A DNA stretch of 64,000 nucleotides from assembly GCA_002707525.1 (NCBI GenBank), contig PAND01000010.1, forward strand, positions 6,638 through 70,637, read 5' to 3'. The notes beneath the pieces were generated by a model, which saw only the letters and a list, made by a program, of their open reading frames with translations, made no database searches and was not told where the DNA came from. Shown piece after piece: positions 25,724 through 30,286 of the stretch. A program made the translations under genes and the position numbers. Each line of letters begins with the position of its first letter. Within the stretch, counting starts at the first letter, position 1. The DNA is from Flavobacteriales bacterium. Lineage in GTDB: Bacteria; Bacteroidota; Bacteroidia; Flavobacteriales; Schleiferiaceae.

Positions 25724-26389
25724 TTACTCTTTTGTTTTTTCGGTAGCCTCAGCGGGTGCTTCTTCTGTTGCAGCTTCGGCAGGTGCTTCTTCTGTTACAG
25801 CTTCGGCAGGTGCTTCTTCTGTTACAGCTTCGGCAGGTGCTTCTTCTGTTGCAGCTTCGGCAGGTACTTCTTCTGTTGCAGCTTCAGCGTGTGCTTCTTC
25901 TGTTGCAGCTTCAGCAGGTGCTTCCTCAACTGGAGCCATAGCCGCTGCGATTGCAGCTTCACGTGCTTTATTTACCTCTGTTTCAGCAGAAAGACGTGCG
26001 CTTTTTTCCGCATCTTTCTTAGCATCTATAGCTTTAACATTGGCACCGATTTTAGACTCTTTGTCATTAAGCCAAGAGTCATATTTTGCATCAGCTTGCT
26101 CTTGAGTTAGAGCACCTTTACGTACTCCTTCAAGCAAGTGCTTTTTCATCATTACGCCACGATAGGATAGAATGGAACGAGCCGTATCTGTTGGCTGAGC
26201 GCCTTTCATAACCCATGATAGAGCGGAATCAAAGTTTAAGTCAATTGTAGCAGGATTAGTGTTGGGATTGTAAGTACCTAATTTCTCTATGAAGCGCCCA
26301 TCACGTTTTGAACGTGCATCCGCGACAACTATTGAATATATTGGTCTTGCTTTACGACCACCTCTTTGCAAACGAATCTTTGTTGCCAT
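25724..26389 (-). CDS. rpsP: 30S ribosomal protein S16 with acidic repeat tail
   Basis: S16 binds 16S rRNA during 30S assembly. The first 80 or so residues are ordinary S16 (ATKIRLQRGGRKARPIYSIVVADAR). They are followed by about 140 extra residues: a charged helix, then Ala/Glu/Pro-rich repeats of nine residues (EEAPAEAAT and variants), giving 221 aa against about 82 in E. coli. Bacteroidota S16 proteins often carry such Ala/Glu tails, but this one is long and exactly repeated. Its promoter -7 box lies at 26445-26452. The gene heads rpsP-rimM-membrane protein-trmN6. Confidence 0.95.
   Translation of the reverse strand: MATKIRLQRGGRKARPIYSIVVADARSKRDGRFIEKLGTYNPNTNPATIDLNFDSALSWVMKGAQPTDTARSILSYRGVMMKKHLLEGVRKGALTQEQADAKYDSWLNDKESKIGANVKAIDAKKDAEKSARLSAETEVNKAREAAIAAAMAPVEEAPAEAATEEAHAEAATEEVPAEAATEEAPAEAVTEEAPAEAVTEEAPAEAATEEAPAEATEKTKE
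25755..25928. repeat. 27-bp tandem repeat inside rpsP
   Basis: Six to seven imperfect copies of a 27-base unit (GGTGCTTCTTCTGTTGCAGC... on the plus strand) encode the nine-residue repeat EEAPAEAAT of the S16 tail. Units differ at few bases, so copy number may vary between strains through slippage. The unit is a multiple of three, so gain or loss keeps frame. Confidence 0.9.
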
Positions 26390-26484: not shown

Positions 26485-27468
26485 TCAACTTTCAATATGT
26501 ATGATTTTTGAGCCTTCTTCCTCCATTCTAAATTTAAAAGGAGAGGCACCCAAACTAATCATAGCGTCATCTAAACTTTCATGCTTATCTGCATTTGCAT
26601 AAAAAAGCATAAAGCCGCCTCCGCCAGCTCCTAGCAGCTTTCCTCCGCGTGCGCCTATATTCATGGCGGCATCATAAAGCGTATTAATTCTAGGTGTTGT
26701 GATTCCCTTGGCTAAACTTTGTTTAAGTAACCAATTTTCGTGAAGAATATCCCCGAATGCATTCAAGTCTCCTAGGGTCAATACTTCTTTTAGCTTGTAG
26801 ACTAAATCTACCATTTTCTCTAACGCTTGGAATTTATCTGTTTGAGCGGTGTTTTTATTCTGTTCGGCAAGAATTTTACTTGCACTGCGCTGATTTCCTA
26901 TGTAGTATAATTTCAGATTACGATTTAAGGTATCTCTAGTTTTCAAATTGATTAAAACAGGGTCTATTTTTACGGTTCCATCTGAGTTAAACTCGATCAC
27001 GTTTAGTCCTCCATAGGCCGCAGCATATTGATCTTGTTTGCCAATAGGTTCCTGCAAGAGATCAATTTCAATCCTACAAGCACCAGCTCCTAATCCTTCT
27101 TTGGATACTGTCTTATTCGTATAAGCACTCAAGTTATGTAACAAGCCTACAGTGAAACTTGAACTACTTCCCATTCCTGTCCCACCGGGTATATCCGCTA
27201 TTGAGCTGACTTCAATTCCATTCAAATTAAAATCTTTAAGAACCGTCTTGAGAATGGGATGATTTAGCTCATTAACATCACTAACAGTTTCGGTTTGAGA
27301 ATATTTACATCGTATTTTATCTCTCTCGAAAAACTCGTGAGTGCTGATATACATGTATTTATCAATGGTTGTGCTTAAAACAGCACCCTTTCTTAGACTA
27401 AAGAAACTCTCTAAATCGCTTCCGCCTCCTACAAATGAAATCCTGAATGGGGTTTTGGTGATAATCAT
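26485..27468 (-). CDS. GHMP family sugar kinase (heptose-7-phosphate kinase-like)
   Basis: This 327-residue kinase has the three GHMP motifs: TPFRISFVGGGSDLESFF at the start, IPGGTGMGSSSSFTVGLL (about 94-111, phosphate loop), and KLLGAGGGGFMLFY (about 277-290). The sugar-binding N-terminus resembles D-glycero-D-manno-heptose 7-phosphate kinase (HddA) used in making activated heptose for polysaccharides. Substrate remains an inference; other sugar kinases of this fold are possible. It precedes rpsP on the same strand with a 95-base gap. Confidence 0.82.
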   Translation of the reverse strand: MIITKTPFRISFVGGGSDLESFFSLRKGAVLSTTIDKYMYISTHEFFERDKIRCKYSQTETVSDVNELNHPILKTVLKDFNLNGIEVSSIADIPGGTGMGSSSSFTVGLLHNLSAYTNKTVSKEGLGAGACRIEIDLLQEPIGKQDQYAAAYGGLNVIEFNSDGTVKIDPVLINLKTRDTLNRNLKLYYIGNQRSASKILAEQNKNTAQTDKFQALEKMVDLVYKLKEVLTLGDLNAFGDILHENWLLKQSLAKGITTPRINTLYDAAMNIGARGGKLLGAGGGGFMLFYANADKHESLDDAMISLGASPFKFRMEEEGSKIIHIES

Positions 27469-27574: not shown

Positions 27575-27757
27575 ATGAAAAGAAATCTCATTATTGTAAC
27601 GCTGGTTAGTTCTTCATTATTCCTGCATGCTCAACGCAGAATAATTCATGTTCCTGCTCCTCAGCCGCCAACTGTCCCTATTGATGGTGGTTTGACGGTA
27701 TTGCTTCTAGGGGGAGGACTTCTTGCTAAAAGAATTGTTAAACAACCAAACCAATAA
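27575..27757 (+). CDS. PID-CTERM-like small secreted/membrane protein
   Basis: This 60-residue protein has a signal peptide (about 1-19, ends LHAQ), a short Pro-rich linker (VPAPQPPTVP), then PIDGGLTVLLLGGGLLAKRI, a hydrophobic segment with a basic end. PIDGG followed by a hydrophobic helix and a Lys/Arg tail is what I know as the PID-CTERM pattern of Bacteroidota, thought to be a sorting signal; no exosortase-like gene is seen in the window. It heads a tightly spaced four-gene cluster, three bases before the next gene. The mature peptide would be mostly this tripartite tail, with very little else. Confidence 0.65.
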   Translation: MKRNLIIVTLVSSSLFLHAQRRIIHVPAPQPPTVPIDGGLTVLLLGGGLLAKRIVKQPNQ

Positions 27758-27760
27758 ATT

Positions 27761-28135
27761 ATGTATAACTCGTTAGAGCTCATTCAAAGTAAGAGCACCT
27801 TTCAAATTCAAAAATATGGTGCATCAATCATGATTCAAAGCAGGGGGGTTCAAAACTCTGTTATCAACGAATTGAATGCCTGTTGGCTTGATATTACTTC
27901 CGTGATGATTGATTATCACGAACAGGAAATACTTAAGGATCAAATCAAAGTTTTAGAGCGATTTTCTTGGAATATCGCAAAATTTACGGCTTTAATACCC
28001 CACTTGCCGGAGGATATAGTGGTCTTTCCCCCTAAAGAAGAGATGAGTAAGCAAAGCAATGTGTTTTACTTCAAATTAATGAGGGAATGTTCACGTAAAA
28101 GCGGCCAATTCAAATATTTAAAGCAACTCGATTAA
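27761..28135 (+). CDS. Small helical protein, function unknown
   Basis: The 124-residue protein is predicted by eye to be largely helical (ELNACWLDITSVMIDYHEQE, then IKVLERFSWNIAKFTALI), with a Pro-containing break (VFPPKEE). It has no signal peptide or membrane helix, so it should be cytoplasmic. I recognise no family. It is framed by the PID-CTERM-like gene (3 bases before) and another helical protein (11 bases after), so they are probably co-expressed. It could be a regulatory or adaptor subunit for the DUF58 protein; that is a guess from position only. Confidence 0.6.
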   Translation: MYNSLELIQSKSTFQIQKYGASIMIQSRGVQNSVINELNACWLDITSVMIDYHEQEILKDQIKVLERFSWNIAKFTALIPHLPEDIVVFPPKEEMSKQSNVFYFKLMRECSRKSGQFKYLKQLD

Positions 28136-28146
28136 TTAGTTACTAA

Positions 28147-28560
28147 ATGAAGACAACCATAAGCCAACCGCTATACCAGGAAGCTATGTCCATTAATCGT
28201 TCTATTCAGAGATTGACTAAAGGATATCATAGCAACGGCACATTCAACCTTGCATTTAAGGTAAAAGATGATATCATTAATCTATGCAATGAACTTGATC
28301 AGGGCGTTGCTGCACGGTATGAACATACTTTTGAAAATTACTACAGTAAGGCTATACAATCAGCTAATGAATTACTTGAGCATATAAGAATCGCAAATTC
28401 AGCTAGAATGCTTAAAGGTGGTTTTCCATCTGAACTCATAGAACGCGTGAAATTGCTACAAATGAAGCTTATATTAGTGCTGGAATTATTCAAGACTGAG
28501 GTTCCTTTAGATTACATCACATTATCTAGCTGGGCTCGGCAAAAAATTTCAATGAGTTAA
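28147..28560 (+). CDS. Four-helix-bundle-like small protein
   Basis: This 137-residue protein shows amphipathic helices and few loops. Its start (LYQEAMSINRSIQRLTKGY, about 9-27) and the later SANELLEHIRIANSARML recall the four-helix-bundle family (23S rRNA intervening-sequence protein or Avd-like), but the match is only at the level of helix pattern and is not certain. There is no reverse transcriptase or template repeat nearby, so a diversity-generating element is not supported. Its TAA overlaps the ATG of the DUF58 gene. Confidence 0.55.
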   Translation: MKTTISQPLYQEAMSINRSIQRLTKGYHSNGTFNLAFKVKDDIINLCNELDQGVAARYEHTFENYYSKAIQSANELLEHIRIANSARMLKGGFPSELIERVKLLQMKLILVLELFKTEVPLDYITLSSWARQKISMS

Positions 28561-29411
28561 TGAATAAAGAGGAAATAATAGGTTTGACTTGGTGGGCGCG
28601 ACAGCGCGTAAGAGGTTTTATGACAGGATTGCATAAAAGCCCTGATTTCGGCTTTAGCCTAGATTTCGCTCAGCACCGAGAATATGTTCCTGGTGATTCA
28701 CCAAAATTCATTGATTGGACCGTATTAGCTAGACAAGATAAATTCCTCACCAAGCAATTTGAAGCTGAAAGTAATTTACGAGCGTACTTCTTATTAGATT
28801 CAAGTTCCTCTATGTATGGCGAGAATGGCGAGCGCTGGGATTATGCAGTAAAGCAGATTGCTCTTGCCGCTGCTTTGCTCTCAAAACAAAGAGATGCCCT
28901 TGGACTACTTGATGTGCGGGAGGACGACTTGTTCTTTTTTCAAGCTAAAAATACAGATGAGGCAGTTGAGCAGCTGTTATATCATATTGCGGAGCGCACG
29001 GGCAATGCTCTAAACAATGGAGACTTAGGTGGAGCTATTTCTAGGTTGTTGTCCGAAATAGCTCCACGTAGCGAAGTACTTTTCTTGACGGATCCATATC
29101 ATGAAAATTTGGAATCAATTTGCGAAAGGCTTGGAGCATTTGTGGATGCCGGTCATTATGTTAAAATTCTTTTACTTGTTTCAAAGGAACGCGAATTAAA
29201 GCCGTCTTATTATGCGGGTGAATTCGTTCGGGATTCTGAAAATGGAATGAAAACGGTTTTATCTGCACAAGAATCCAAGTCTCTTAATCAATACATAGAG
29301 GAACAGATTAACACTGTTAAAAACAGTGCTGCATCTTATGGCATAAAGTCTAATGTTCTTTTTTTAGAGGATGATCCGCTTTTGAGTTTTAGTAAGATGC
29401 TTGAGCCTTAG
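28560..29411 (+). CDS. DUF58 / von Willebrand-A-like protein
   Basis: The 283-residue protein is a DUF58 family member. HREYVPGDSPKFIDWTVLAR (about 40-59) is the family signature (REYxxGDxxxxIDW), followed by a VWA-like metal-site start LLDSSSSMYG (about 79-88). DUF58 proteins usually work with a MoxR AAA ATPase in the cytoplasm and next to Bat membrane proteins, and none of these is encoded close by. It ends a cluster with the PID-CTERM-like and two helical proteins, so it may use different partners. No signal peptide is seen. Confidence 0.82.
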   Translation: MNKEEIIGLTWWARQRVRGFMTGLHKSPDFGFSLDFAQHREYVPGDSPKFIDWTVLARQDKFLTKQFEAESNLRAYFLLDSSSSMYGENGERWDYAVKQIALAAALLSKQRDALGLLDVREDDLFFFQAKNTDEAVEQLLYHIAERTGNALNNGDLGGAISRLLSEIAPRSEVLFLTDPYHENLESICERLGAFVDAGHYVKILLLVSKERELKPSYYAGEFVRDSENGMKTVLSAQESKSLNQYIEEQINTVKNSAASYGIKSNVLFLEDDPLLSFSKMLEP

Positions 29412-29425
29412 TGAAATGTATACCC

Positions 29426-30286
29426 TCAATGGGAAGGTTTAGTCAATTCTTTAGAAGAAACAAGGTACTTGTGACATCCAGATAATTGTTGAGACATAAT
29501 ATATGCAGTATATAGTTGCTGAAGTCCCCTAAGTAAAACGACTATAATTAGTATTGAATCAAAGTCAGCACCGATTCCAAGGCTATTATTTACAAATAAG
29601 GAAAGAACCAAGGATGAAATAATAACTACCTCTCGTAAGTTTTTATTGGTCGCATCCCATCGAGCAGCATTAATCCTGAAAGAAGAAAGTGTATTCAGCT
29701 CTTCATTGCCTAATGAGTCCATACTATTTGCTAAATCACTTGAGTTGGCATGCCAAAAGTCTTGTTTGATTTTTATTCTAGATAATATAAGTACCCAAAT
29801 TCCAATGATCAATAAGGTTATTACTCCAAATTTTGGTGATAAGCATATTCCTATCACTGTGAAAACTATTCCTGGTAATAATTGACTCCAGCCAACAAAT
29901 AGAAAATTAATGGACTGTACACTTTTTCCAAAGTTCACTTTATGCAGTTGTCTTGATTCTTTGGATTGAATTTGACGAAAAGTAGTCATCAATTCTATTC
30001 TAGTCTTGGCATTTAAGAATTGAGCCTGACGCCCTACAAGAAATCGGATTAAAAGAATTATCCCTAATACAATTGAAAAATAGAGTAGGGATAGTTCTAA
30101 CCATGCAATAGTTACACTTTGATATCCCAAAAAAAGACTCCTAATTAGGGGCAATGAGATAAGGATGGGCATAGTTTCTAGCACACCAGAAATGCCTGTA
30201 ATAAGTAGTAACATTCTCAAACTATATGAAGTCTGCTGGCTACTATAAAACGCACAAGCTAATTTGATGGAATTTGTTTTATTCAT
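29426..30286 (-). CDS. Orphan ABC-exporter-like transmembrane domain
   Basis: This 286-residue protein has five or six membrane helices with the spacing of an ABC exporter transmembrane domain (ISGVLETMPILISLPLIRSL near the start, then ILIIVVLLRGLQQLYTAY near residue 245). It stops where the linker to the ATPase would begin (KYLVSSKEL). No ATP-binding domain is encoded at its 3' end, where a DUF58 gene faces it 14 bases away. The first four bases overlap ribB (ATGA). It could be a truncated exporter, a TMD that uses an ATPase in trans, or a repurposed membrane protein. Confidence 0.65.
   Translation of the reverse strand: MNKTNSIKLACAFYSSQQTSYSLRMLLLITGISGVLETMPILISLPLIRSLFLGYQSVTIAWLELSLLYFSIVLGIILLIRFLVGRQAQFLNAKTRIELMTTFRQIQSKESRQLHKVNFGKSVQSINFLFVGWSQLLPGIVFTVIGICLSPKFGVITLLIIGIWVLILSRIKIKQDFWHANSSDLANSMDSLGNEELNTLSSFRINAARWDATNKNLREVVIISSLVLSLFVNNSLGIGADFDSILIIVVLLRGLQQLYTAYIMSQQLSGCHKYLVSSKELTKPSH

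Follow-up and report, generated by a model that had tools for sequence, protein, structure and literature searches.

How does a DUF58 protein operate at a locus that holds no MoxR or Bat gene, and what do the two small helical proteins encoded directly ahead of it contribute? Both questions are raised by a compact cluster in the window, by which we mean the whole 64,000-nucleotide stretch of Flavobacteriales (Schleiferiaceae) DNA that was analyzed. The cluster's four open reading frames, P1 to P4, were confirmed, all on the + strand at positions 27575-29411. P1 (27575..27757) encodes a putative 60-residue secreted peptide, P2 (27761..28135) and P3 (28147..28560) encode proteins of 124 and 137 residues, and P4 (28560..29411) encodes the DUF58 protein of 283 residues. 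The spacing, 3 bases between P1 and P2, 11 between P2 and P3 and a 1-base overlap of P3 and P4 (TAATG), agrees with the preliminary description of the locus, which had suggested a possible envelope-linked module, not yet described, with the small proteins standing in for MoxR or serving as adaptors.

Comparisons among close relatives gave dN/dS values of 0.06-0.17 for P1, 0.04-0.12 for P2, 0.00-0.06 for P3 and 0.03-0.07 for P4, all well below 1, which indicates that the four genes are real and under purifying selection; no structured RNA was found at the cluster locus. Two neighbors on the - strand lie outside the module, a divergent gene for a GHMP-type sugar kinase (26485..27468) that is kept beside the block in the genus, and rpsP (S16; 25724..26389), a syntenic anchor common to outgroups. 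The S16 protein carries a long acidic repetitive C-terminal tail with EEAPAEAATEEA-type repeats. On the other side, a gene for a 286-residue protein (29426-30286), which resembles an ABC-transporter membrane domain without the ATPase domain, converges with P4 from the opposite strand, with 14 bases between its stop codon and the end of P4. Most relatives have two genes (~689 and ~510 residues) between P4 and this membrane-protein gene, the former with a lipoprotein-like product and the latter with a product bearing a signal peptide; this pair is absent at 29411-29426 of the window and also in genomes G012 and G003.

Of the 25 genomes examined from one genus (uncultured Schleiferiaceae/Cryomorphaceae-type Flavobacteriales), 18 carry the P2-P3-P4 block at the same locus, with spacings from about -4 to +34 bases and with fixed order and orientation, rpsP and the GHMP kinase gene on one side and P2-P3-P4 diverging from them; in genome G019 contig ends interrupt the block. 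P2 and P3 occur in the same 18 genomes, remnants of P3 persist in three more, and across the genus neither gene was ever seen intact without the other, which suggests that P2 and P3 work together. The pair was confined to a single genus, both among the 31 genera of relatives and among the 90 of an order-wide sample. When 84,980 species genomes were scanned for the pattern, only 18 loci came up, all in genomes whose titles call them MAGs of Bacteroidetes, Flavobacteriales, Cryomorphaceae or Schleiferiaceae. The gene block is compact and conserved within the genus. A literature search of titles and abstracts found no description of a P2-P3-DUF58 block, and nothing on PID-CTERM; as had been supposed, the arrangement appears to be undescribed, although each of its parts is of a known kind or similar to one.

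P4 matches DUF58 (PF01882) at 5.8e-23 (81.7 bits against a gathering score of 23.4), falls in the 'GLHKSP' subfamily and is orthologous to the DUF58 protein encoded after dnaE-trxA in other Flavobacteriales. The VWA-like metal site ascribed to it is there in part: DxSxS (80-84) and D178 are retained, but the MIDAS threonine is missing, leaving incomplete the set (DxSxS, T, D) that marks a MoxR-associated VWA protein. Outgroup orthologs have Thr or Ser at this position; of the 19 genus members compared, 18 have Gly (as the window does), Ala, Glu or Lys instead, and in the P4 tree the genus sits on a long stem. Since nearly all genus members lack the threonine, target binding by P4 may be altered, and the protein may now act in a different way.

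The absence of MoxR and Bat genes held for the cluster locus but not for the genome, which encodes two full MoxR genes and a complete Bat operon. MoxR1 heads a MoxR-DUF58-BatD-BatA-BatB operon on contig C11; the preliminary description had named such an operon, holding the true partner, as what would refute its module, and this refutation is borne out in part. The operon has its own DUF58, and the likely partner of P4 is the second gene, MoxR2. MoxR2 is solitary, on contig C1 behind three PpiC/SurA-type genes. The PpiC-PpiC-SurA-MoxR2 linkage (contig C1 of genome G000, about 108506-113576) is common to other Flavobacteriales; in each of six outgroups examined MoxR2 also lies behind SurA/PpiC genes, with one or two PpiC-type genes not recognized in two of them. 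Because of this linkage, the gene neighborhood suggests that MoxR2 is tied to outer-membrane protein biogenesis.

MoxR2 and P4-type DUF58 occur together. Among 60 genomes, with classes read from tables by the gap in E-values (P4-type, < 1e-20; MoxR2, < 1e-100, or clear fragments in G014), 48 had both, 9 neither, 3 MoxR2 only and 0 P4 only (p=1.5e-8). With kinship handled by collapsing to genera only, 24 of the 31 genera tested had both, 7 neither and 0 were discordant (Fisher p=3.8e-7). The MoxR2-only genomes are G001 and G018, which are 72-74% complete, and G037, which is in 270 contigs and whose congener G052 has both genes. Of the seven genera that lack the pair, five retain a MoxR1-type gene and a DUF58. 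Given that the genus-level co-occurrence is without exception, MoxR2 is likely the partner of P4, and we infer that the two proteins pair physically; very probably the ATPase partner of P4 is encoded elsewhere in the same genome. With this pairing, what had looked like an exception to the MoxR/VWA rule disappears.

P2 and P3 had been described as small all-helical proteins of unknown family. AlphaFold models, built as single chains from genus alignments, agree with the first part, predicting a four-helix bundle for P2 (mean pLDDT 92.3) and a four-helix bundle with an extra C-terminal helix (123-136) for P3 (mean pLDDT 83.4). The second part no longer stands for P3, which matches PF05635 (S23 / 23S rRNA IVP) at 1.8e-6. 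The window protein scores 28.5 bits against a gathering score of 33.8, 17 of the 18 P3 orthologs match the family (best 5.5e-9), and those of genomes G007 and G009 exceed the cut-off of 33.8 (36.4 and 35.9 bits); by these profile matches P3 is most likely a divergent PF05635 member. For P2, profile searches found no family match, in Pfam including PF05635, and a comparison of the P2 and P3 profiles detected no homology (hhalign probability 0.2%), which rules them out as recognizable sequence paralogs. The two also evolve differently, with identities within the genus of 20-82% for fast-evolving P2 and 63-96% for strongly conserved P3.

Sequence searches gave no significant solved relative for either protein. 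By structure, the best solved match to both models was 2gsc, with 2rld, annotated as S23 family, also high and Avd further down. Foldseek E-values are modest and four-helix bundles match easily, and read in that light P3 aligned to 2gsc with probability 1.00, TM 0.65/0.75, rmsd 2.6, 20% identity and E 1e-3, and P2 with probability 1.00, TM 0.60/0.63, rmsd 4.6 and an E of 0.085. Both proteins apparently have the S23/Avd-family fold, which P3 matches well and P2 more weakly. S23-fold proteins are widespread and of unclear function; in this one lineage they gain a fixed genomic neighbor, P4.

The pair is not kept everywhere in the genus. P4 is intact in G003, G004, G014, G015 and G011, where P2-P3 are gone or broken; remnants of the P3 end lie ahead of P4, and in G011 P3 is frameshifted. 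In G004 a remnant of the P3 tail is fused in frame to P4. The five genomes fall in four places in the P4 tree, and well-supported branches force at least 4 changes. Since P4 was kept through repeated loss of P2-P3, it does not need them, and the best reading of the pair is a lineage-specific, dispensable accessory inserted upstream of P4.

P1 has a signal peptide, a Pro-rich linker, a PIDGG motif, a hydrophobic segment and basic residues. The window copy scores 25.2-25.6 bits against the PID_CTERM profile NF046080, just under the cut-off of 26, and its match is confined to the first 18 of the profile's 25 positions; the orthologs in G007 and G009 exceed the cut-off (32.5-32.9 bits). P1 was found in only 4 genus genomes, those two, G012 and the window's own, and would be an addition specific to a subclade, encoding a small exported peptide of PID-CTERM-like type. 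The only basis for the envelope link proposed for the module is P1, which these four genomes carry.

The origin of the arrangement can be approached through the outgroups. In other Flavobacteriales the P4 ortholog follows a dnaE-like gene and a 105-residue trxA-like gene (which, by length and recognition of the proteins, we take to be dnaE and trxA), without MoxR, and in the best-preserved cases dnaE-trxA-DUF58 lies beside rpsP. The window's genome has its dnaE ortholog (56% identity) on contig C1, where neither trxA nor DUF58 follows it. The most economical explanation is that in the ancestor of the genus dnaE-trxA left, DUF58 stayed near rpsP, and the S23/Avd-fold genes P2 and P3 took the upstream place.

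Taken together, we consider it somewhat more probable than its alternatives combined that MoxR2 has P4 as its VWA-type partner, encoded at an unlinked locus, with P2-P3 an accessory S23/Avd-fold pair that may act on the P4 machine, and P1 a subclade addition. P4 would then be the half that binds targets in a MoxR AAA+ chaperone whose ATPase is encoded on another contig, and the two genes would form an unlinked chaperone across much of Flavobacteriales. P2, P3 and P4 are probably carried on one transcript. Because P2 and P3 are kept or lost together, they most likely assemble with each other, as an S23-type helical-bundle oligomer, and they would most likely serve as a dispensable regulator or scaffold on co-translated P4 and hence on the MoxR2 machine. 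Such action on P4 is our leading but weak guess, and the odds of an unrelated accessory job are almost as high.

That other job, which we hold to be a serious possibility at roughly one chance in three, would make P2-P3 an independent pair, either a nucleic-acid-binding S23/Avd-like oligomer or a conflict or defense unit, sharing the DUF58 transcript by chance. The S23/Avd fold, the restriction to a single genus, the repeated co-loss with P4 kept, and the combination of a fast-evolving P2 with a strongly constrained P3 are all consistent with it. On the other hand, the position directly ahead of P4 is constant in 18 genomes at near-zero spacing, the charge of P2 and P3 is not strongly basic, and signs of mobility are lacking. 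Mobile or phage cargo was ruled out, given that no relative of P3 was found on phage, plasmid or viral contigs and that the locus is fixed. A known defense system was likewise rejected, PADLOC giving no match for P2 or P3 and, for the DUF58 protein, only a weak match to BrxA (E 0.021).

A more specific form of action on P4, which we regard as a doubtful one-in-five proposition, is that a P2-P3 hetero-oligomer of S23/Avd type is a lineage-specific adaptor or regulator of the MoxR2-DUF58 chaperone, with a P3 helix imitating the P4 N-terminus. The C-terminal helix of P3, DYITLSSWARQKI (residues 122-134), resembles the N-terminal EIIGLTWWARQRV of P4 (residues 5-17; window 28510-28610), the same register being seen across most of the genus. 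The likeness was noticed post hoc, with p 0.0015-0.007 in the window's clade and 0.1-0.5 elsewhere, and is only suggestive. If the proposal is true, S23-fold proteins gain a role in an AAA+/VWA machine, for which we know of no precedent.

Replacement of MoxR by the small proteins, to which the lack of MoxR in the cluster had pointed, is now very improbable. MoxR1 and MoxR2 are both present in the genome, P2 and P3 are helical bundles with no AAA+ match, and the envelope part suffers from the absence of P1 from most of the genus. MoxR2 is retained in all genus genomes; P2-P3 were co-lost at least four times with P4 and MoxR2 kept in all five genomes, and therefore they are no substitute for MoxR, and DUF58 does not require them. 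Slighter still is the chance that P2-P3 belong, as Avd-like components, to a diversity-generating retroelement, since Avd structures do occur among the fold matches but S23 proteins match better, and no reverse transcriptase (RVT_1) was detected in the ~91%-complete genome.

Compared with known systems, P1 shares with PID-CTERM its signal peptide, PIDGG and hydrophobic stretch, and differs in the partial, borderline match of the window copy. P2 and P3 share a general four-helix fold with Avd, and resemble the S23 / 23S rRNA IVP proteins (PF05635, TIGR02436; 2gsc, 2rld) by sequence and fold in the case of P3 and, more tentatively, by fold only in that of P2. They differ from the latter in being two diverged bundles in tandem, encoded outside any rRNA intervening sequence, P3 with its additional helix.

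In the NorQ/NorD system the VWA protein is modeled as plugging the MoxR ring, with its MIDAS binding the target, and NorD needs the MIDAS threonine (PMC9976466). Relative to the MoxR/VWA pairs RavA-ViaA, NorQ-NorD and Bat MoxR-DUF58, the pair described here differs in that the MoxR2 and P4 genes are unlinked, in the genus and in the outgroups examined, in that P4 of nearly all of the genus lacks that threonine, and, with respect to the Bat operon, in that no Bat membrane proteins are encoded at the P4 locus. In the sampled Flavobacteriales a second MoxR and a second DUF58 are thus unlinked and yet co-inherited, and MoxR2-P4 offers a concrete, testable chaperone pair, one side of it tied to SurA/PpiC genes. 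The likeness to the established pairs lies in P4, a DUF58 protein that keeps DxSxS and the conserved Asp, and in MoxR2 being found alongside P4-type DUF58 in every genus that has it.
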